Shown: in pieces, positions 33,501 to 56,939 of the stretch | Layout: each line of letters begins with the position of its first letter | How positions within the stretch are numbered: position 1 is the first letter of the stretch | Notes under the pieces: generated by a model | What the model was told of the DNA's origin: nothing | The model's input: only the letters and a program-made list of their open reading frames with translations | The model's database searches: none | Source of the DNA: Dokdonella sp. | GTDB taxonomy: Bacteria; Pseudomonadota; Gammaproteobacteria; Xanthomonadales; Rhodanobacteraceae | Direction: 5' to 3' | Assembly (NCBI RefSeq): GCF_019634815.1 | Contig: NZ_JAHCAP010000003.1 | Coordinates: forward strand, 1 to 64,000 | Length of the DNA: 64,000 nt | Made by a program: the position numbers and the translations under genes

Positions 33501-33693
33501 CCCCTCTGTCCTTTTGCCTGAGAGTTTGGAAGCGCGACATTCCACATGGAAGCCGGCTTCGTGCCCCTTCGGCGCCGGTTCGAACCGGTCTCTCCAGAGT
33601 GTCCGTGCGTGATGGTTGCGAGCCTGAGCGATTACGGGCGTTGCGCCTTCGGCAGCGGCTCCCGGAACCCGAGGGGCCGCTTCTCCCATCACG
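33501..33693 (-). promoter_or_regulatory. Tandem glycine riboswitch of gcvP
   Basis: Two glycine aptamers in a row precede gcvP on the minus strand. The downstream one (33501-33603) has GGAGAGACC, CGCCGAAGGGGC and CTCTCAGGCAAAAGGACAGAG, which are hallmark conserved segments. The upstream one (33608-33693) has GGGAGAAG, GCCGAAGGCGCAA and CTCAGGC. Such RNAs turn on gcv genes when glycine is high. 46 bp separate the downstream aptamer from the ATG. Confidence 0.95.
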
Positions 33694-33709
33694 AACTATG
33701 AACCGCGCG

Positions 33710-35618: not shown

Positions 35619-35970
35619 TGGTGGAGGCGGCGGGAATTGAACCCGCGTCCGAAGGCACTCCGTGCCCGGCGCTACATGCTTGTCACGCTGTTTGATCTCG
35701 TCTTGCGGCAACACAACGTGCGAGGCGCACCGCAGGACCAGCCTCTTGGATTTGATCCGCAACCGAAAGGCGCCGGCGCGGACGATCCTGTGATAGTGAC
35801 CCTACATCCACGAGCACAGGCACAAGTGGGTTCGGGGCTAGGCCTTAAGCGGCCAGAGCGTAGACGTCGTCGTTCGCGTCTAGTTTTTTGCCACCGGATT
35901 AACGAGGAAGATGACGCCCTCGGCATGCTCCAGACTACTTCGCGTCCCCCGTCGAAACCATGTCGCCCCC
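35619..35970 (-). ncRNA. ssrA: tmRNA (transfer-messenger RNA)
   Basis: tmRNA rescues ribosomes stalled on broken mRNAs with SmpB. The 5' GGGGGCG pairs with the 3' CGCCUCC of the acceptor stem, and the gene ends with encoded CCA. The 3' part contains the T-loop GGTTCAATTCC. The tag frame reads ANDDVYALAA and then TAA (resume codon GCG). Length about 352 nt, normal for a one-piece tmRNA. It lies just downstream of smpB on the same strand. Its 3' end is an integration site (see the displaced copy). Confidence 0.97.
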
Positions 35971-45707: not shown

Positions 45708-46433
45708 ATGAACGTACCGCTTCGCCTCGCCATCAATGGTGCCGGGGGCCGCATGGGCCAGCTTCTGTGCGCGTTGGCTGTCGAGGACGCGCGCTTCGAA
45801 CTGGTCGCGGCATGCACGCCTGCGACCGATTTCGCTGCGCTGACGGCGATCGATGTCATGGTCGACTTCAGCGCACCCGCGGGCCTGGTGCGCGCACTCG
45901 CCCATTGCGAGAAGAACGGCGTGGCCCTGGTCAGTGGCACCACCGGTCTGGATCCTGGTTTGCAACAGCGCCTGGACGCCGCCGGCCAGCGAATTGCGCT
46001 GCTGCATGCGGCCAACTTCAGCCTCGGCATGGTCCTGCTCAGCCATCTGGTCGCGCAGGCTGCAGCAATACTGCCGGGATGGGATCTCGAAATCCTCGAG
46101 GCGCACCACCGCGCCAAGCGTGACGCACCCTCAGGTACCGCGCTCGCGCTCGGACAGGCGGCAGCGAATGCGCGTGGTGTCGAGTTGGATGCGGTCAAGG
46201 CAATCGAGCGCGGCGGCCAGCGCGCACCGGGCGCGATTGGTTTTGCCGCGCTGCGGGCGGGTGACATCGTCGGCGAGCACAGCGTCCTGCTGGCCACGCC
46301 GGGAGAACGGATCGAGTTGACGCATCGGGCGACCGATCGCGCGATCTTCGCGCGAGGCGCCCTGCATGCGGCGGTCTGGATCGCCGGCCGCGAGCCTGGG
46401 CGCTACGGCATCGACGAGATGCTTGCGCCCTGA
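45708..46433 (+). CDS. dapB: 4-hydroxy-tetrahydrodipicolinate reductase
   Basis: DapB makes tetrahydrodipicolinate, a step of lysine and diaminopimelate synthesis. The 241-residue protein has the dinucleotide motif NGAGGRMGQ and the catalytic LEAHHRAKRDAPSGTAL (HHRxKxDAPSGTA). The length is slightly below the family norm (about 265-270). The ATG at 45708 (MNVPLRLAING) was preferred to longer starts. Confidence 0.96.
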   Translation: MNVPLRLAINGAGGRMGQLLCALAVEDARFELVAACTPATDFAALTAIDVMVDFSAPAGLVRALAHCEKNGVALVSGTTGLDPGLQQRLDAAGQRIALLHAANFSLGMVLLSHLVAQAAAILPGWDLEILEAHHRAKRDAPSGTALALGQAAANARGVELDAVKAIERGGQRAPGAIGFAALRAGDIVGEHSVLLATPGERIELTHRATDRAIFARGALHAAVWIAGREPGRYGIDEMLAP

Positions 46434-46705
46434 GTCGCGCGGCGTTCGTCGCGTGTGTCCTGCCCGGCGACACATGGCTTTCCTGGTCGCGCAGTGGTCG
46501 CCGCGGGTTGCTGAAGTGGATGCCCCGGAGAGCGGCGTGCATCCGAACGGCACGGGCGCTGTTGCAAGCGATAGTCATTTGCCGCGCGCTGGCGGTCGGT
46601 TCGGCTTCTGTCGTGGTTCAGCGACTGCATGCTCAAATCCCGGCAGGTACGGTGTCATGGTCGTCATGCGGAGAAGGATCCGCGGCGGCCTGCGGTGGAG
46701 GCGAC

Positions 46706-47239
46706 ATGAAGGTGGCGGTATGGTTGGCAATGCTGGGTCTCGCGGGAACCGGGATCGCGGCAGCGCAGGATCGCGGCTACGCGGACGAGGCTTCGAACAA
46801 TTTCAAGGTGGCTTGGGCCGATGTCTTGCGCGTCGATCCGGTCTACGACCGTGCGCGCGGCGCTGCGCGTGAAGTCTGCGAGGAAGTGCCGGTCGAACAT
46901 CGCGTCGACGAGCGGGGCAACCGGGTTGCCGGCACGGTCGTCGGTGCGGTCATCGGCGGCGTGATCGGCAGCTCCGTGGGCAAGGGGGATGGTCGTCGCG
47001 CGGCGACCGTGGCTGGCGCCGTCGCCGGTGGTGCGATCGGCAATCAGGTTGCGCGCGGCGACGATGGCTACTATCAGGGCGTCGAACGCCGTTGCCGCAT
47101 GGAGGCTGGGCCGGCCGAAGAACGCGTGGTCGCCTATGACGTGCAGTACCGCTACCGCGGCGATGTATTCATGTCGCGCCTGAGTTACGACCCCGGCGAT
47201 CGCCTGCGCGTACGCGTGAGCATCGAGCCGGTGGAGTGA
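46706..47239 (+). CDS. Exported glycine-zipper (17-kDa antigen-like) protein
   Basis: The 177-residue protein has a signal peptide (MKVAVWLAMLGLAGTGIAAAQ), without a lipobox cysteine. A glycine-zipper 2TM-type segment follows (GTVVGAVIGGVIGSSVGKGDGRRAATVAGAVAGGAIGNQVARG), as in SlyB-like envelope proteins. A strong GGAGG site precedes the ATG. The 272 bp upstream (46434-46705) hold no gene that I can support. Confidence 0.85.
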   Translation: MKVAVWLAMLGLAGTGIAAAQDRGYADEASNNFKVAWADVLRVDPVYDRARGAAREVCEEVPVEHRVDERGNRVAGTVVGAVIGGVIGSSVGKGDGRRAATVAGAVAGGAIGNQVARGDDGYYQGVERRCRMEAGPAEERVVAYDVQYRYRGDVFMSRLSYDPGDRLRVRVSIEPVE

Positions 47240-47351
47240 AACTCTGGTGCGGCGACGCCTTTGCACCGTCGAAAGCAAGTTCTATTGCGCTGCAGCAACT
47301 TTGCCGCTAAGGTGCCCCGCTCCGAGTCAACACTTGTACGCACTCCGACGC

Positions 47352-47456
47352 ATGTTTCGATCCGCCCGCCCACCGCAAGGTCTCAGCAGCGCCCGCATGG
47401 CCGCTGGCATGACTTCGCGTGCGCGTCGACCGGAAGCTGGACATTCCGCCGGGTAG
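47352..47456 (+). CDS. Candidate arginine-rich leader peptide of the arg cluster
   Basis: This in-frame short reading ends at TAG 47454-47456. Its last 16 codons from ATG 47409 read MTSRARRPEAGHSAG, with Arg codons at 47418, 47424 and 47427. Earlier starts at ATG 47397 and 47352 add more arginines; a GTG at 47247 with GGAG upstream would give 69 codons beginning with three Arg codons. None of the internal ATGs has a good SD. High GC makes Arg-rich frames common, so coding is unproven. The stop overlaps the antiterminator strand GCCGGGT (47448-47454). Confidence 0.4.
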   Translation: MFRSARPPQGLSSARMAAGMTSRARRPEAGHSAG

Positions 47457-47516
47457 GCTGTCGCGTACTGCTGTCTTGAGTTGACGACCAAAACCCGGCC
47501 CGCGCCGGGTTTTTTG
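47448..47516 (+). promoter_or_regulatory. Candidate transcription attenuator of the arg cluster
   Basis: GCCGGGT (47448-47454) can pair with ACCCGGC (47493-47499) over 7 bases. The same ACCCGGC strand forms the stem of the terminator 47490-47516 with GCCGGGTTTT. The two structures exclude each other. A ribosome paused at the Arg codons (47418-47429) would leave the first strand free; one reaching the stop would cover it and allow termination. The genes of arginine synthesis begin 37 bp after the terminator. Confidence 0.5.
47490..47516 (+). terminator. Intrinsic terminator in the arg cluster leader
   Basis: AAAACCCGGC, a 4-base CCGC loop and GCCGGGTTTT form a perfect 10-bp stem, followed by TT, G and TTTT. 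It lies 251 bp past the upstream gene and 40 bp before the first arg gene, leaving little room for another promoter. Confidence 0.9.
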
Positions 47517-47556
47517 TTTTCCACCGTTTGTCGATTGCACCGAGGGGACACTGCCG

Positions 47557-48558
47557 ATGCGTCACTTTCTCTCCACCCAGGACTGGTCCCGCGCGGATCT
47601 CGACGCATTGTTGGCTCAGGCCGCGGCGTTCAAGCGCTGCAAGGCCGGCACGCAGCTCGCAGGCAAGTCGATCGCGCTGCTGTTCTTCAATCCCTCGATG
47701 CGCACGCGCACGAGCTTCGAACTGGGTGCGTTCCAACTCGGTGGCCACGCGGTCGTGCTGCAACCGGGCAAGGACGCCTGGCCGATCGAATTCGAATTGG
47801 GCACGGTAATGGATGGCGAAGCCGAGGAGCATGTGGCCGAGGTTGCGCGCGTGTTGTCGCGCTATGTCGATCTGATCGGCGTGCGCGCGTTTCCGAAATT
47901 CCGGGACTGGTCGGTCGATCGCGAGGACCGCGTGATCCATGCCTTTGCCCGGCATGCGACGGTACCGGTGATCAACATGGAGACGATCACCCATCCGATG
48001 CAGGAGCTCGCCCACATCCTCGCCCTGCAGCAGCATTTCGGCAGCAGCGATCTGCGCGGCAGGAAATACGTGCTGACCTGGACCTATCATCCCAAGCCGC
48101 TCAATACCGCGGTGGCCAATTCGGCGCTCCAGATCGCCACCCGCTACGGCATGGACGTGACCCTGTTGTGCCCGAATCGCGACTACCTGCTTGATTCCCG
48201 CTACATGGAGTTCGCCGCGCGCAATGTCGCCGAAAATGGTGGTTCGCTGACGATCAGCCATGAGCCGCAGCAGGCCTATCGCGGCGCCCACGTGGTGTAC
48301 GCAAAGAGCTGGGGCGCACTGCCGTATTTCGGCCGCTGGGACGAGGAGAAACCGGTTCGCGATGCGCACCGCCATTTCATCGTCAACGAGGCCAAGATGG
48401 CGCTCACCGATGGCGCGGTCTTCAGTCACTGCCTGCCCCTGCGTCGCAACATCAAGGCGACCGATGCGGTGATGGATTCGGCCGCCTGCATTGCCGTCCA
48501 GGAAGCCGAGAACCGCCTGCATGTGCAGAAGGCGGTGATGGCGGCATTGGCACAGTGA
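47557..48558 (+). CDS. argF': N-acetylornithine carbamoyltransferase
   Basis: This enzyme makes acetylcitrulline from acetylornithine and carbamoyl phosphate, replacing normal OTCase. The 333-residue protein has the carbamoyl-phosphate site FFNPSMRTRTSFELG and the CLPLRRN motif. The 80s-loop reads WPIEFELGTVMDGEAEEHV, as in Xanthomonas AOTCase, rather than OTCase. A GAGGGG site lies about 10 bp before the ATG. It heads the arginine cluster. Confidence 0.93.
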   Translation: MRHFLSTQDWSRADLDALLAQAAAFKRCKAGTQLAGKSIALLFFNPSMRTRTSFELGAFQLGGHAVVLQPGKDAWPIEFELGTVMDGEAEEHVAEVARVLSRYVDLIGVRAFPKFRDWSVDREDRVIHAFARHATVPVINMETITHPMQELAHILALQQHFGSSDLRGRKYVLTWTYHPKPLNTAVANSALQIATRYGMDVTLLCPNRDYLLDSRYMEFAARNVAENGGSLTISHEPQQAYRGAHVVYAKSWGALPYFGRWDEEKPVRDAHRHFIVNEAKMALTDGAVFSHCLPLRRNIKATDAVMDSAACIAVQEAENRLHVQKAVMAALAQ

Positions 48559-48618: not shown

Positions 48619-49833
48619 ATGACGATGACGACCAACAAGGACATCGTGCTGGCATTTTCGGGCGGCCTCGACACGAGCTTCTGCGTGCCCTGGCTGAAGG
48701 AACGAGGCTGGGCCGTGCATACCGTGTTTGCCGATACCGGCGGCGTCGATGCGCAGGAACGTGCCTATATCGAGCAACGCGCCGCAGAACTCGGCGTTGC
48801 CTCGCACGTCACCATCGATGGTGGGCCGGCGCTATGGCGTGACTTCGTCAAGCCTTTCGTGTGGGCTGGCGAGGCCTACCAAGGCCAGTATCCACTGCTG
48901 GTTTCCGATCGGTATCTGATCGTCGATGCGTCGCTCGAGCGCGCGCGCGCACTGGGCACACGCGCGATCGCGCACGGCTGCACCGGCATGGGCAACGATC
49001 AGGTGCGCTTCGATCTTGCGGTCAAGGCGCAGGGCGACTGCGAGATCATTGCGCCGATCCGCGAGATCCAGAAGGAACACACACAAACACGCGCCTACGA
49101 GCAGCAGTTCCTGGAACAACGCGGATTCGGCGTGCGCGCCAAGCAGAAGGCCTACACGATCAACGAGAATCTGCTCGGTCTGACGATGTCGGGCGGCGAG
49201 ATCGATCGTTGGCTTGCGCCCGGTGAAGGTGCGCAGGGCTGGTGCAAGCCGCGCGCCCAATGGCCGGAGGCGCCGTTGCGCGTGCGGGTGGGTTTCGAGC
49301 GCGGTGAAGCGGTCGCGCTGGATGGCGAACGTCTCGCCGGTGCAATGCTGCTCGCGCGGCTCAATGCGCTGTTCGCAGCCTATGGCGTGGGCCGCGGAAT
49401 CTACACCGGCGACACCACCATCGGGCTCAAGGGTCGGATCATCTTCGAAGCACCCGGCCTCATCGCTCTGCTCGCCGCGCATCGCGCGCTCGAGGAAGCA
49501 GTGCTCACCAAGCAACAAAACCGCTTCAAGCCCGATGTCGCGCGCAAGTGGATCGAACTGGTGTACGAGGGATTTTTCCACGATCCGCTCAAGACCGATC
49601 TCGAAGCCTTCCTCGCTTCGAGCCAGAGCTGCGTCGAGGGCGAGGTCGTGCTCGAGACGCATGGTGGCAACGTCGCTGCGGTCGAGATTCGTTCCACGCG
49701 CATCCTCAATGCCAAGGGCGCGACCTATGCGCAGAGCGCCGACTGGGGCGTCGCCGAAGCCGAGGGCTTCATCAAGCTCTACGGCATGAGCAGCACGCTG
49801 TGGGCCGAAGTCAATGCGGATCGGCGCGCATGA
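48619..49833 (+). CDS. argG: Argininosuccinate synthase
   Basis: ArgG joins citrulline and aspartate with ATP. The 404-residue protein has the PP-loop AFSGGLDTS near residue 13 and the [14 protein letters not shown] block. The end overlaps the next gene by 4 bp (ATGA). An ATG 6 bp inside the reading frame is an alternative start. Confidence 0.97.
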
Positions 49834-50927
49834 GCCAATTGCTCGATACCACGCTGGCGCATCTGCGTGTGCTGGTCGCCTTCGATACGCGCAACCCGCC
49901 GCGCGCGATCGACGGCGGCGGCATTTTCGCGTGGCTGCGCACGAATCTACCGGGTTTCGAATGCCGCGTGATCGATCACGGTGCGGGTGCGGTGAGCCTG
50001 TTGGCGATTCGCGGCAAACCGCGCTTGCTGTTCAACGTGCATCTGGACACGGTGCCCGACTCGCCGCACTGGAGTGCAAGTCCGTTCGAGCTGCGCGTCG
50101 ATGGCGAACGTGCGGTCGGCCTCGGCGCTTGCGACATCAAGGGCGCGGCGGCCGCCTTGCTGGCGGCGGCGCAGGCAACACAGGGTGATGCCGCGTTCCT
50201 GTTCACGAGCGATGAGGAAGCCAACGATCCGCGCTGCATCGCTGCGTTTCTCGCCGGGTCGCAAGCGGACAGGTTCGATGGCGTGATCGTTGCCGAGCCG
50301 ACGCATGGCGCGGCGGTGCTCGCGCATCGCGGCATCAGTTCGGTGCTGATGCGCTTTCATGGTCAGGCCGGGCATGCGTCAGCGCGTCAGGATCCGGCTG
50401 CGAGCGCCTTGCATCAGGCGCTGCGCTGGGGCGCGCGTGCGCTCGATCAGGTCGATGCACTCGCGCAGGAACGCTTTGGCGAACTCAGCGGCCTGCGTTT
50501 CAATGTCGGTCGCATCGAGGGTGGCATCAAGGCCAATGTGATCGCGCCGGAGGCCGAGCTGCGCTTCGGCTTCAGACCGTTGCCATCGATGGATGTGGAT
50601 GCCTTGCTCGCGCAATTTCGTGCGCTGTTGCCCGTCGCGGGCAGCGAGTTCAGCGAGACCTTCCGCGGCCCGGCGCTGCCGGCGAGCAAGCCGGCGCAGG
50701 CGCAGGAGGCGCGTGCCCGGGCGCAGGCACTCGCCAATTCGCTGGGTTTGCCGATCGGCGCCGCGGTCGACTTCTGGACCGAAGCCGCGCTGTTCTCGCA
50801 GGCCGGGAAAACCGCCTTCGTGTATGGCCCGGGCGACATCGCCCAGGCACACAGTGCCGATGAGTGGGTTGCGCTCGATCAGTTGCAGGCCTACGTCACC
50901 CAAGTCCACCGGATCCTGCAAGCATGA
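49830..50927 (+). CDS. argE': Acetylcitrulline/acetylornithine deacetylase (M20 family)
   Basis: The 365-residue M20 metallopeptidase removes the acetyl group. The context (AOTCase upstream) indicates that the substrate is N-acetylcitrulline, as in Xanthomonas, rather than acetylornithine. Metal ligands are in [29 protein letters not shown] and VAEPTH. Overlap of 4 bp with both neighbours implies coupled translation. Confidence 0.9.
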
Positions 50928-52246
50928 ATGAGCAGACCCATCTGCAGATGCGCCAGACCATCGTGCGACTGCTGTCGAGCATGGCCAGCGCGCGCGAGAT
51001 CGATCAATACCTCAAGCGCTTTTCGCAGCTCGATGCCAAGCGCTTCGCGGTGGTCAAGGTCGGTGGCGCGGTGCTCCGCGATGATCTCGACGCGCTCACT
51101 TCCTCGCTCGCCTTCCTGCAACAGGTCGGCCTGACCCCGATCGTCGTTCACGGCGCGGGCCCGCAGCTCGACGAGGAGCTCGCTGCCGCCGGCATCGCCA
51201 AGCAGACCGTGAACGGCCTGCGCGTGACTTCGGCGCAGACGTTGGCGATCGTGCGCCGCGTGTTTCAGGCGCAGAACCTCAATCTGGTCGAGGCGCTGCA
51301 GCAGGTCGATGCGCGCGCCACCTCGGTGCTCTCGGGCGTGTTCGAGGCCGAGGCGATCGATGCGGCGACGCTTGGCCTCGTCGGTCGCGTGAGCCGCGTC
51401 AACCTTGCACCGATCGAAGCGAGCCTGCGTGCCGGATCGATTCCGGTGATCGCCTCGCTCGGTGAAACCGAAGCAGGGCAGATCCTCAATATCAACGCCG
51501 ATTTCGCCGCCAACGAGCTGGTGCGCGTGTTGCGCCCTTACAAGATCATCTTCCTCACCGGCACCGGCGGCCTGCTTGACGAGCAGGGCAAGGTGATCGA
51601 TTCGATCAACCTGAGCACCGAGTACGAGCGATTGGTGAAACAACCATGGCTCAATGGCGGCATGCGCGTGAAGATCGAGCAGATCAAGGAATTGCTCGAT
51701 CATCTGCCGCTGTCCTCGTCGGTGTCGATCACGCGACCCGATGAGCTGGCCAAGGAGCTGTTCACGCACAAGGGTTCGGGTACGCTGGTACGGCGCGGCG
51801 AGCGCGTGCACGTGCATGAGGACTGGGATGGCATTGACCGCGAACGCCTGCGCGCACTCATCGAAGCGAGCTTCAAGCGTCGCCTCGTCGCCGACTATTT
51901 CGAGCGCACCAAACCCTGCAAGGTGTATTTGAGCGAGAACTACCGCGCCGCGCTGATCCTCACGCGCGAGGCGGGCATGACCTATCTCGACAAGTTCGCG
52001 GTCGCCGATGATGCACAGGGCGAGGGTCTGGGTCGCGCGGCCTGGCAGGTGATGCGCGCCGACAATCCGAGCCTGTTCTGGCGCTCGCGCCACGGCAATC
52101 CGATCAATCCGTTCTACTACGCCGAGTCCGACGGCTGCTGGAAGCAGCCGCGCTGGAAGGTGTTCTGGTATGGCATCGATGATCTCGCCGCGATCGACCA
52201 GTGTCTGGTGCACTGCCGCGACCGCCAACCCACCCTGATGGACTGA
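50924..52246 (+). CDS. argA/B: Bifunctional N-acetylglutamate synthase/kinase
   Basis: The 440-residue fusion has an amino-acid-kinase domain (about 1-280: [28 protein letters not shown]) and a C-terminal acetyltransferase domain (about 290-440: [27 protein letters not shown]). This is the NAGS-K type known in Xanthomonadales and related groups. It does the first two steps of arginine synthesis, so argA and argB are not needed separately. The start overlaps argE' by 4 bp. Confidence 0.94.
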
Positions 52247-52250
52247 ATCC

Positions 52251-53201
52251 ATGCACAAGGCAACCGTCGGCATAGTCGGCGCACGCGGCCACACCGGGGC
52301 GGAGCTGATTCGCCTGATTGCGCGCCACCCGCAGCTTGAACTCGCTTTCGTTTCCTCGCGTGAACTCGACGGCGAGCGCGTGAGCGAGCAGGTCGCGGGA
52401 TACACGGGCGAGCTGCGCTACGAAAGCCTGGCGCATGACGCGGTGGCGTTCAGGCGCGCCGATGTCGTCGTGCTGGCCCTGCCCAATGGCAAGTCGCAGG
52501 AATTTGTCGCTGCGATCGATGCGCTCAAGCCCGACACGCTGATCGTCGATCTGTCGGCCGATCATCGCTTCGACGAGACCTGGTACTACGGCCTTCCCGA
52601 ACTCACGCGCGCGCAGGCTGCGGGTCGCAGACGCATTGCCAATCCGGGTTGCTATGCGACCGCAATACAGCTGGCGATAGCGCCAGTCAAAGACCAACTC
52701 GCCGCGCCTCCGGCCTGCTTCGGCGTGTCGGGCTATTCGGGCGCGGGCACGACGCCGTCCGAGCGCAACGATCCCGCCAAGCTGCGCGACAACCTCATGC
52801 CTTATGCGCTGACCAATCATATCCACGAGCGCGAAGTCACGCGCCAGTTGGGTCTGCCGGTCGAATTCATGCCACATGTGGCGCCGCACTTCCGTGGCAT
52901 CACGATGACGGTCAATCTGTGGCTGCAACAGGCGGTCACGCTTGCGCAGGTGGAGGAAGCTTTCCGCAGCTTCTATGCGCATGAGCCGTTGGTGCGCATC
53001 ACCGAATCGGTGCCGTGGGTGAGTGCGATCGCGGGCCGTCACCATGTCGAGATCGGCGGCTTCAGCGTGGCGCCAGGCGGCAAGCGCGTGGTGGTGGTTG
53101 CGACGATCGACAACCTGCTCAAGGGCGCGGCGACGCAGGCGCTGCAGAACATCAACCTCGCGCTGGGCCATCCCGAACTGGAGGGCATTCCCCATGACTG
53201 A
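52251..53201 (+). CDS. argC: N-acetyl-gamma-glutamyl-phosphate reductase
   Basis: ArgC reduces acetylglutamyl phosphate to the semialdehyde. The 316-residue protein has the dinucleotide motif [13 protein letters not shown] and the catalytic cysteine in [12 protein letters not shown]. The short length is normal for this type. It overlaps argH by 8 bp. Confidence 0.96.
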
Positions 53202-54489
53202 CTTGCTGTGGCAGAAGGCCGGCGTGCGTACCGACGAGCGCATCATGCAGTTTCTCGCCGGCGATGACGTGATCCTCGATTGCGAGTTTTTCCTGCACGA
53301 CATCGAGGCGAGCAAGGCGCATGTCGGCGGACTGCTCAACATCGGCTTGCTGTCTGCGGACGAGCACGCCGTGCTGGCGCGCGAACTCGACACGCTGGCC
53401 GAGGATTTTCGCGCCGGCCGCTTTGTGCTCGATGCGCGCTTCGAGGATGGCCATTCCGCGATCGAGGCACGTCTGAGCGAGCGACTGGGCGATGCCGGAC
53501 GCAAGGTTCACAGCGGACGCAGCCGTAACGACCAGATTCTTGTCGCGACCCGACTGTGGCTGAAGGCACGTCTGGGCGATTTGCTGGAGTCTTGCCGCGC
53601 GGTCGCGCGCATCTGTCTTGAACGCGCCGCGGGAGAGGACTTGCCGCTGCCGGGCTACACCCATCTGCAGCGCGCAGTGGTGTCATCGACTGCACTGTGG
53701 TTTGCGGGTTTTGCCGAAGCCTTCATCGACAATGCACGTCGTGCGCACGACACCTTGACTTGGGTCGATGCCAATCCGCTCGGCACTGCAGCGGGCTATG
53801 GCGTCAACCTGCCGCTCGATCGGCAGCACAGCACGAACGCGCTCGGTTTCGCGCGCATGCAGATCAATCCGATCTACGCGCAGCTCTCGCGCGGCAAATT
53901 CGAGATCGCTGCGCTTGATGCGCTCGGCGGCGCGCTGCTTGACCTGCGACGTCTGGCCTGGGATCTGTCGCTGTTCACCACAGCCGAGTACGGCTTCGTG
54001 CAACTGCCGGGTGAGTACACCACCGGCAGTTCGATCATGCCCAACAAACGCAATCCCGACGTGATTGAACTCATGCGCGCGAGTTACGCAAGCCTGGCCG
54101 CGGCGCGCTGCGAGATCGAGCAACTGCTGTCCTTGCCGTCGGGCTACCAGCGTGACCTGCAGTTCTCCAAGGGCGCGATCGTGCATGGCTTCGGACGCGG
54201 ACTTGCCGCGCTCGCGCTGCTTCCCGACCTCTTGGCGCAAATGCAGTGGAATGCGTCGGCGATGCTCAGCGCGATCGAGCCGTCAATGTATGCGACCGAT
54301 GTCGCGATCGAGCAGGCGGCAGCGGGTGTGCCGTTTCGCGATGCCTATCGCAAGGCCGCGGACGATGCCGGCAAGGCGGGTGCGGGTCGCACACCGCAGG
54401 CGAGTCTCGCGGCGCGCGTTTCACCCGGTGCCGCCGCGGATCTGCGCCTGGACGAACTGCGCGCGCGGTTGCGCGCACTGGAAACCTGA
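53194..54489 (+). CDS. argH: Argininosuccinate lyase
   Basis: ArgH splits argininosuccinate to arginine and fumarate. The 431-residue protein has the signature [18 protein letters not shown] (catalytic serine loop) and [10 protein letters not shown]. An ATG overlaps the end of argC. Confidence 0.97.
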
Positions 54490-54537
54490 ATCACGTCATT
54501 GAGGCTCCTGCGGGCAGCCATGGCATGGGGGAAGAGC

Positions 54538-55677
54538 ATGGGGAGCGGATTCACGCAGCAGGCATTGCCGACTTGGCGGCGCGCGGTGCTCAAGGTCGGC
54601 AGCAGTCTGCTCGCCGATCGCGACGGCAATCTGTCCGATCGCACTGCGCGCGGCCTCGCGGCGTTCATCACGGCCGCACGCGCAGTCGGTCACGAAGTCG
54701 TGCTGGTGTCCTCGGGCGCGGTCGCGGCCGGACGTGCGCAGGTGCCGACCACGCCGCGCAAGGGCGGGGGGCTGGTCTTGCGTCAGGCCTTGGCCGCGCT
54801 TGGGCAGACGCGCATGATCGGACTCTGGCAGGGCCTGCTCGCGATGCCGGTAGCCCAGGTCCTGCTCAGTCACGATGACCTGCGTGATCGCCGCCGCTAT
54901 CTCAACGCGCGCAATACCTTGCTCGAACTGCTGCGCCTGCATGCCGTGCCGATCATCAACGAGAACGACACGGTTGCGGTCGAGGAGCTCAAGCTCGGTG
55001 ACAACGACAATCTCGCGGCGATCGTCGCCGCGCTGGTCGATGCCGACCTGCTCCTGATCGCCAGTGACGTCGATGGTCTCTACGACGCGCATCCCTTGCA
55101 TGATCCCGCGGCGCGCCCGATCGAGCGGGTGGATGCGATCACGCCGGCCGTGCTCGCGGTGGCCGGCGGCAGTGGCAGCGCGGTGGGCACCGGCGGCATG
55201 CGCACAAAACTCGAGGCCGCAAGCAAGGCGGGCAAGGCCGGCATCGCGACGGCGCTGTTCAATGGCGCCGATGCCGATACGGTCGCCTTGCTCGCGCGTG
55301 GATGCCTGCGTGGCACGCACTTCGCCGCGGCCGGTTCGCGCCTCGCGGCGCGCAAGTACTGGTTGCGCCATGCGCCTGGAACGCAGGGATGGGTGCGGGT
55401 CGATGCGGGCGCGGCGGCGGCGCTGCGCTGCGGCGCTTCCTTGCTCCCCGGCGGTGTCGTCGGGATTGACGGCGAGTTTGCGCGCGGCGATCTGGTCGAC
55501 ATCGTCGATGGCGCGGGTAGCGCCTTTGCGCGCGGTCTGTGCCAGTACGCCGCCGGTTCGGCCCGGCGCATTGCCGGTCGGCACACACGCGAGATCGAAG
55601 CCTTGCTTGGCTACTCTTACGGCGAGGAAATGATACGCCGCGATGACCTCGTGCTGTTCGACGAGGCCGTGGCATGA
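54538..55677 (+). CDS. proB: Glutamate 5-kinase
   Basis: ProB makes gamma-glutamyl phosphate, the first proline step. The 379-residue protein has an amino-acid-kinase domain ([25 protein letters not shown]) and a C-terminal PUA domain. The ATG at 54538 has GGGGA 8 bp upstream, better than the ATG at 54520. It couples to proA by 4 bp. Confidence 0.96.
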
Positions 55678-56939
55678 GCGTTTCGGTGCGCGAACTGGCC
55701 CTGCAGGCGCGCGCCGCAGCGCTGGAGATCGCCGCGCTGTCTGGCGAGCGCAAGCGCGTGGCGCTGGCGGCGATGGCCGATCGAATTGAACAGCATGCGC
55801 CGCAGATCCTTGCCGCCAATACGCGCGATGTCGCGGCAGCGCAGTCACGTGGCGCCGCTTCACACCTGATCGATCGGCTGCGTCTGGATGCGACACGGCT
55901 CGCTGCGGTGGCTGCGGCGGTACGTGCGGTGGCCGCCTTGCCCGATCCGGTCGGTCAGCTGACCCATCGCGAATCGCGACCCAACGGCCTCGTCATCGAG
56001 CGCGTGCGCATCCCGCTCGGCCTGATCGCGATGATCTACGAAGCCCGGCCGAACGTGACCGCCGATGCGGCCGCACTGTGCTTCTTTGCCGGCAACGCGG
56101 TGCTGCTGCGGGGTGGATCGGAGGCTTTGGAGAGCAATCGCGCGATCGCCACGGCGCTGCGCGAGGCGCTGCATGGCCAAGGCCTGCCGCCCGCCGCAGT
56201 CACCCTGATCGAAGATCCACGCCGCGAATGCGTGCTCGAACTCCTGCAACTGCACGGGCTGATCGATCTGGCGATTCCGCGTGGCGGCGAGAGCCTGATC
56301 CGCTTCGTGGTCGAACACGCGCGCGTGCCAGTGATCCAGCACTACAAGGGCGTGTGTCACCTGTATGTCGATGCTGCCGCTGATCCACAGCTTGCGCTGC
56401 GTCTGTTGATCGACGGCAAGACCACGCGGCCCGCGGTCTGCAACGCGCTGGAAACGCTGCTCGTGCATGCCGAAATCGCCGCCGCCTTCCTGCCCGCAGC
56501 ACTCGCAGAGTTGCATGTGCGTGGCGTCGAAGTGCGTGGCTGCGAGCGTAGCCGCGCGCTGGGTCCGCATGTGATCGCCGCAAGGGAAGCCGACTTCGGC
56601 TGCGAGTTCCTCGATCGCATCATCGCCGTGCGCGTGGTCGAGGATTTCGAGGCCGCGATTGACCATATTCGCCGTCATGGTTCGGATCACACCGAAGTCA
56701 TCGCCACTTCGGATCCGGCAACCGTGGAGCGCTTCGTCGATGCACTGCGCAGCGCGGTGGTGATGGTCAATGCCTCGTCGCGTTTCAGCGATGGCGGTGA
56801 ATTGGGTCTGGGTGCCGAAATCGGCATCTCGACCTCGCGCCTGCATGCCTACGGGCCGATGGGCGCGCAAGCGCTGACGATCGAGCGCTTCGTCGTGCGT
56901 GGCGACGGACAGGTGCGGCATCCCTTGTCGAGTCCGTGA
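55674..56939 (+). CDS. proA: Gamma-glutamyl phosphate reductase
   Basis: ProA reduces gamma-glutamyl phosphate to the semialdehyde. The 421-residue aldehyde-dehydrogenase-like protein has the catalytic cysteine in [15 protein letters not shown] and the ANVTADAA and GGSEALESN binding segments. It overlaps proB by 4 bp. Confidence 0.97.

Follow-up and report, generated by a model that had tools for sequence, protein, structure and literature searches.

The 64,000-nt stretch of DNA analyzed here (the window; positions 1 to 64,000 of contig NZ_JAHCAP010000003.1 of Dokdonella sp., assembly GCF_019634815.1) carries a cluster of arginine and proline genes that begins with argF' and runs on through argG to proA (Table 1). 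The names given to the genes from argG to proA are inferred from their domains and order, and co-transcription of the cluster is likewise inferred. A glycine-zipper gene on the same strand as argF' ends at 47239, and the region between the two holds a predicted promoter, a short open reading frame (ORF) and an intrinsic terminator. Elsewhere in the window, on the minus strand, are tandem glycine riboswitch aptamers at 33502-33698 (two RF00504 matches, 33502-33601 and 33603-33698) and a tmRNA gene at 35619-35970 (RF00023, 181 bits).

Table 1. Features of the argF' leader and the genes downstream, in window coordinates
Feature	Position	Strand	Basis
Predicted promoter: -35 TTGCGC (47285-47290), 17-nt spacer, -10 TAAGGT (47308-47313)	47285-47313	+	comparative scan; unmapped in this organism
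Leader peptide ORF, 34 codons plus TAG	47352-47456	+	same core in 115/118 argF' leaders; pN/pS
Match to Rfam RF02242 (Xoo5 "sRNA")	47353-47477	+	52.6 bits against a gathering score of 50; full length of model
Conserved core S-A-R-M-A-A-G-M-T-S-R-A-R-R	47388-47429	+	per-codon table
Regulatory Arg codons CGT (47418-47420), CGT (47424-47426), CGA (47427-47429)	47418-47429	+	conservation across 139 leaders
Antiterminator strand GCCGGGU, overlapping the stop codon	47448-47454	+	7-nt Watson-Crick complement of terminator 5' arm; covarying position
Intrinsic terminator, stem 47490-47499/47504-47513, U-tract to 47521	47490-47521	+	sequence; terminator in 139/139 leaders
Ribosome-binding-site-like GAGGGGA of argF'	47542-47548	+	sequence
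argF' (N-acetylornithine carbamoyltransferase type), first gene controlled	47557-48558	+	OTCace_N and OTCace domains; orthologue PXO_00353 named N-acetylornithine carbamoyltransferase
Downstream cluster: argG, M20 peptidase (argE'), AA_kinase-NAT fusion (argA/B), argC, argH, proB, proA	48619-56939	+	Pfam domains

The terminator is a 10-bp stem, AAAACCCGGC-CCGC-GCCGGGTTTT, followed by the U-rich tail TTTGTTTT, and about 40 nt separate it from the ATG of argF'. The ORF ahead of it, from the ATG at 47352 to the TAG at 47454-47456, would encode MFRSARPPQGLSSARMAAGMTSRARRPEAGHSAG; its translation is inferred. Overlapping this stop codon is GCCGGGT, the exact complement of ACCCGGC within the terminator's 5' arm. 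An earlier reading of this DNA, made from the sequence alone, had picked out the terminator, its distance from the first gene, the alternative partner over the stop codon and the three Arg codons near the end of the frame, and had compared the layout to the attenuators of his, trp, and leu operons; each of these features is borne out. However, a 7-nt complement also occurs in 2.4% of shuffles (121/5000) of this sequence, so that the single sequence is only suggestive and the case rests on comparison with relatives.

Such a comparison reveals that a single peptide, whose core reads S-A-x-M-A-[AS]-G-M-T-S-R-A-R-R, is encoded in 115 of 118 distinct argF' leaders, the exceptions being a copy displaced by repeats (L092), a GMA variant (L015), and a copy lying further upstream (L059). 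In L092 and L059, from Dokdonella-like genomes, an expansion of tandem repeats (CACCCTCACCCCAACCCTCTCC...GGGAGAGGGGG) separates argF' from the attenuator terminator. Over 139 distinct leaders, the Xanthomonadaceae, the Rhodanobacteraceae, and two further families share A-x-x-A-[AS]-GMTSRARR in near-invariant form upstream of argF'. Across 90 distinct codon strings of the core the residues A, A, G, M, T, S, R, A, and the final R do not change, while the third codon base is variable for G, T, A, and two of the R residues. The pN/pS ratio over the 14 codons of the core is 0.25 in frame, as opposed to 2.1 and 3.3 in the other frames, which shows selection on an encoded peptide. The GMTSRARR pattern occurs once in the Dokdonella genome itself and, in a sample of 369 genomes of Gammaproteobacteria, is confined to the Lysobacterales. 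In one other genome (G282) the ATGACNTCNCGNGCNCGNCG motif occurs twice, once on each of contigs C9 and C14 (L210 and L211). The leader peptide has no match in Pfam or NCBIfam at E-values up to 1, including SpeFL/ORF34 (PF10940), although very short peptides are hard for profiles to detect.

All three Arg codons of the core are kept in 138 of the 139 leaders. In 134 leaders the last of them is CGA, which accounts for only 0.7% of Arg codons in the argF' genes at these loci; that pairing also constrains its choice cannot be ruled out. The sequence-only reading had conceded that Arg codons abound in any DNA of high G+C content. This objection holds for the frame comparison, as all three frames of this G+C-rich stretch are rich in CGN codons (3.9, 3.4, and 2.9) and Arg richness by frame in the core is uninformative. 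It was replaced by codon conservation and by shuffles in deeper families (below).

The terminator is present in all 139 leaders; its alternative partner, which reads GCCGGGU or GCUGGGU, sits at the stop codon or overlaps it. With the best match picked in each leader, the longest antiterminator run is 7 Watson-Crick base pairs in 101 of the 139; the mean run is 6.5, compared with 5.6 when arms are swapped between leaders and 4.4 in shuffled regions. Counted at a fixed pairing register, the third pair between antiterminator and terminator arm is C-G in 75 leaders, U-A in 60, and U-G in 4, with no mismatches. On the argF' tree the antiterminator base switches about four times, and its partner follows in 2.8 of 3 supported contrasts. 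Because the independent events are few, this covariation is supportive, not overwhelming. The last Arg codon lies 18 nt from the antiterminator in 117 of the 139 leaders. When folding was predicted with a ribosome shadow (the A-site codon plus 12 nt removed), the antiterminator formed in 127-129 leaders with the ribosome at the three Arg codons and in none with the ribosome at the stop codon, the latter partly by construction, given the overlap of stop codon and antiterminator. A 1:2 (anti-antiterminator) hairpin is plausible, but not clearly conserved: upstream pairing averages 0.72 overall and 0.22 in the window, with no single partner site. Loss of the Arg codons or of the alternative pairing in relatives would have refuted the original proposal, as would a promoter inside 47516-47557. 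Both elements are kept, the pairing with compensatory change, and a consensus scan of 46000-48500 finds no promoter-like site, hence none between terminator and argF'. The proposed his/trp/leu-type layout is thus supported by conservation over 139 leaders, selection on the reading frame, and compensatory pairing.

By comparative scan, a promoter of the form TTGCGC-like/N16-18/xAxxxT is found in 121 of the 139 leaders, against 17 of 139 shuffled ones, and its position is consistent with the 5' RACE end of the small RNA Xoo5 in X. oryzae (PMC3039613). The ATG of most Xanthomonadaceae leaders follows the -10 box by only 7-10 nt, and no Shine-Dalgarno sequence is therefore expected; this spacing predicts a leaderless mRNA, again in line with the 5' RACE end. 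The distance is 25-40 nt in Dokdonella and several other Rhodanobacteraceae. The ATG of the window leader lies 38 nt past the predicted promoter (TTGCGC-N17-TAAGGT), which leaves a 5' untranslated region of about 30 nt without an obvious Shine-Dalgarno sequence. A missing Shine-Dalgarno sequence had been raised as a weak point, and to that extent rightly; the start codons considered then, however, were internal ones, and the conserved start is the ATG at 47352.

The element in the window is by score a member of RF02242, the Rfam family of Xoo5. Cloning, 5' RACE, and Northern blot in Xanthomonas oryzae yielded eight RNAs, among them Xoo5 (PMC3039613). It lies between PXO_00354 and PXO_00353, the latter named in the same paper as N-acetylornithine carbamoyltransferase and PXO_00352 as argininosuccinate synthase; in the passages found there, these genes are not linked to Xoo5. 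Xoo5 is thus the Xanthomonas copy of the leader, directly upstream of the same gene. The RF02242 model has 124 nt, the length of the RACE-defined RNA, and for this reason the 5' RACE end should, by inference, be model position 1, 2 nt before the AUG. The Northern bands of about 130 and 100 nt (PMC3039613) are shorter than the 165 nt predicted for a terminated leader. An RNA of about 131 nt would end at the foot of the terminator, which suggests that Xoo5 is trimmed to the hairpin foot or has another 3' end. Rfam types the family as "Gene; sRNA" and gives it no function. In view of the selection on the reading frame shown above, this non-coding label looks wrong, while the sequence family looks right. 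Rfam matches to the rnk and Trp leaders (E-values of 0.14 and 0.75) were rejected as terminator look-alikes.

Beyond these four families, in families f5, f7, f8, f10, and f11 of the Lysobacterales, the GMTSRARR motif is absent. Most argF' genes there follow a short ORF with an Arg cluster, for instance LRRRRRSSQRRAG, TNPRRRRVLQSTAG, and IRRLRRPRTGNRAG (each running to a stop codon), PIRRRRRRDPALAG, IRRRRRRDPALAG, and RRESSRRRRC. The best count of Arg in six codons averages 3.7 in 31 such leaders versus 1.6 in dinucleotide shuffles. GCTGGGT often lies near or over the stop codon, together with a terminator of the form ACCCAGC...GCTGGGT. A further compensated variant can be read in one leader (L190, f11), with antiterminator GCTGGGC and arm GCCCAGC; in some deep leaders (L186, L191, and L234) a terminator was not found. 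In L189 (f8), a stretch with an Arg-cluster leader (TTCCCGGGCCGCCGCGCACGACG...GGCCGGGTAGCC) occurs twice in the contig, about 190 nt apart, which may be a duplication or an assembly artefact. The common denominator of the leaders is thus the Arg codons rather than the peptide. Since the deep families share the codons and not the peptide, codon sensing would be the basic mechanism, and the comparison argues that the invariant peptide is an elaboration upon it in families f1-f4. Three aspects go beyond the earlier reading: the element is a described Rfam family, its peptide is conserved past the Arg codons, and other families have unrelated Arg-cluster peptides.

Arginine synthesis in proteobacteria is textbook ArgR territory. 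The earlier reading had contrasted its proposed attenuation with this usual regulator. No match to PF01316 or PF02863 is found in the Dokdonella genome. PF02863 is detected in only 8 of 200 Lysobacterales genomes, all eight belonging to one family (f12), and a search with PF01316 agrees, with one sub-threshold exception. No leader ORF of the attenuator type was found in the two f12 genomes examined. About 1.4 kb separate argR and the OTC gene in one f12 genome (G011:C17:19494-22044). This distribution suggests that the repressor may have been replaced by the attenuator, although an unrelated transcription factor (e.g., the AraC-type ArgR of Pseudomonas) is not excluded.

Four of the features by which a ribosome-mediated attenuator is recognized are present here: an ORF with codons for the regulated amino acid, an intrinsic terminator, an antiterminator that excludes it, and a suitable stall geometry, though a few leaders have their stop codon further upstream. 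There is little doubt that the device is a translation-coupled attenuator, and it is probably an arginine attenuator of the his/leu type, which would sense mainly through decoding of its Arg codons; stalling and the response to arginine are inferred, and no experiment on the arginine response of this leader was found in the literature. RNA polymerase would start upstream of the leader ORF with a ribosome close behind. When charged Arg-tRNA is scarce, the ribosome would slow at CGU, CGU, and then the rare CGA, covering the RNA just downstream but leaving GCCGGGU, 18 nt on, free. Pairing of GCCGGGU with ACCCGGC in the 5' arm would block the terminator, and argF'-argG-argE'-argAB-argC-argH-proBA would be transcribed. 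With plentiful arginine, on the other hand, the ribosome would reach the stop codon and cover GCCGGGUAG, the terminator would form, and only a short leader RNA (Xoo5 in Xanthomonas) would be made. The leader and its RNA switch very probably turn the arginine genes on when arginine is short.

The point against plain codon counting is that the core is kept beyond the Arg codons (G, M, T, S, and A), and this conservation suggests an added nascent-chain contribution. As a tentative possibility, the leader may encode an arginine-responsive arrest peptide, in which a chain read by the tunnel and slow decoding of CGA would together make the ribosome an arginine sensor, derived, in Lysobacterales without ArgR, from a simple Arg-cluster attenuator. 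It is unlikely, though given the conserved peptide still a real possibility, that the peptide is the sensor proper, i.e., that A-x-x-A-[AS]-GMTSRARR arrests the ribosome through the exit tunnel under modulation by arginine (free or as Arg-tRNA) and works the same RNA switch, much as has been described with ornithine for SpeFL and tryptophan for TnaC. The stretch that is near-invariant over four families spans about 13 residues up to the last Arg, while some 10 N-terminal and 4 C-terminal residues vary. With the ribosome at RARR, 13 residues are about the length of chain in the upper tunnel. Moreover, three leaders of family f4 (L147, L148, and L149) have a stop codon directly after RRP (or RRPG), and despite this early stop they retain the GMTSRARR core together with a downstream antiterminator-like GCTGGGT or CCGGGT. 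Against a peptide sensor, the deep families keep the Arg clusters and lose the motif, which is hence unneeded for the basic device; the preference for rare CGA speaks for decoding rate, and arrest has not been demonstrated.

Sensing mainly by codon decoding is therefore retained, and two other explanations fare far worse. It is very improbable that Xoo5 is a trans-acting small RNA with its own targets, placed before argF' by chance: its Rfam type and its detection as a discrete short RNA by 5' RACE and Northern blot (PMC3039613) would fit, but a terminated leader is also expected to appear as a short RNA, and Xoo5 is conserved as a reading frame, stands in cis before argF' in families f1-f4, and pairs at its downstream end with the argF' terminator. 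This leaves room for an additional role in trans. That the hairpin merely terminates the upstream glycine-zipper gene, with the Arg codons a by-product of high G+C content, is scarcely tenable: this gene does end on the same strand, and the 7-nt complement alone does turn up in shuffles, yet a conserved promoter-like site and an ORF intervene, and the conservation of Arg codons, frame, and pairing already contradicts it.

With the his, trp, and leu leaders of enterobacteria, the codon-sensing attenuator proposed here shares a short ORF with codons for the regulated amino acid, an antiterminator and a terminator that exclude each other, and a stop codon over the antiterminator; a rare regulatory codon, CUA, is also found in the leu leader (PMC1183508). 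Unlike these attenuators, it would sense arginine, has a peptide core almost invariant beyond the regulatory codons, is predicted to be leaderless in most Xanthomonadaceae, and is found in ArgR-less lineages. The trpL mRNA of Sinorhizobium is likewise leaderless. Its peptide (peTrpL) also belongs to a transcription attenuator (PMC7298713), though one of a tryptophan operon in the Alphaproteobacteria and unrelated in sequence. In SpeFL/ORF34, the leader peptide of speF in Salmonella and E. coli, low arginine pauses the ribosome at consecutive Arg codons and alters mRNA folding (PMC6386406). However, no intrinsic terminator is involved: SpeFL controls an ornithine decarboxylase by way of Rho, RNase G, and the accessibility of the ribosome-binding site, and its peptide (HIRRT-HIMM) is unrelated. 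Rare Arg codons in the leader peptide rbfL of Staphylococcus aureus also sense arginine limitation (PMC13009471), by translational occlusion of a biofilm regulator rather than attenuation of arginine synthesis. A leader peptide precedes carAB, an arginine/pyrimidine gene, in P. aeruginosa (cited in PMC4997734); that article ascribes it to attenuation by pyrimidines and places arginine control at the level of transcription, and the operon is a different one. In the open literature, only speF and rbf were found as arginine-sensing leaders (PMC6386406; PMC13009471), and in a survey of RNA-regulated pathways arginine appears only by way of T-boxes (PMC1262725). No paper on arginine attenuation of arg biosynthesis was found in the open literature, a search that leaves out most subscription journals. 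Within that limit, a ribosome-mediated attenuator for arginine biosynthesis looks new; attenuators are a known kind of device, and the RNA is already in Rfam, as an sRNA without function, which is here read as a translated attenuator leader.

The model gives the orphan Rfam sRNA Xoo5 a function. Ranging from leaders with only an Arg cluster to ones with a fixed peptide motif, the families form a natural series in which codon sensing and nascent-chain sensing are separable, and the f4 leaders with an early stop are a natural test of where the stop codon is required. Most of the Lysobacterales, including major plant pathogens (Xanthomonas) and Stenotrophomonas, are apparently without ArgR, and their main arginine cluster is apparently under the control of a translated leader.
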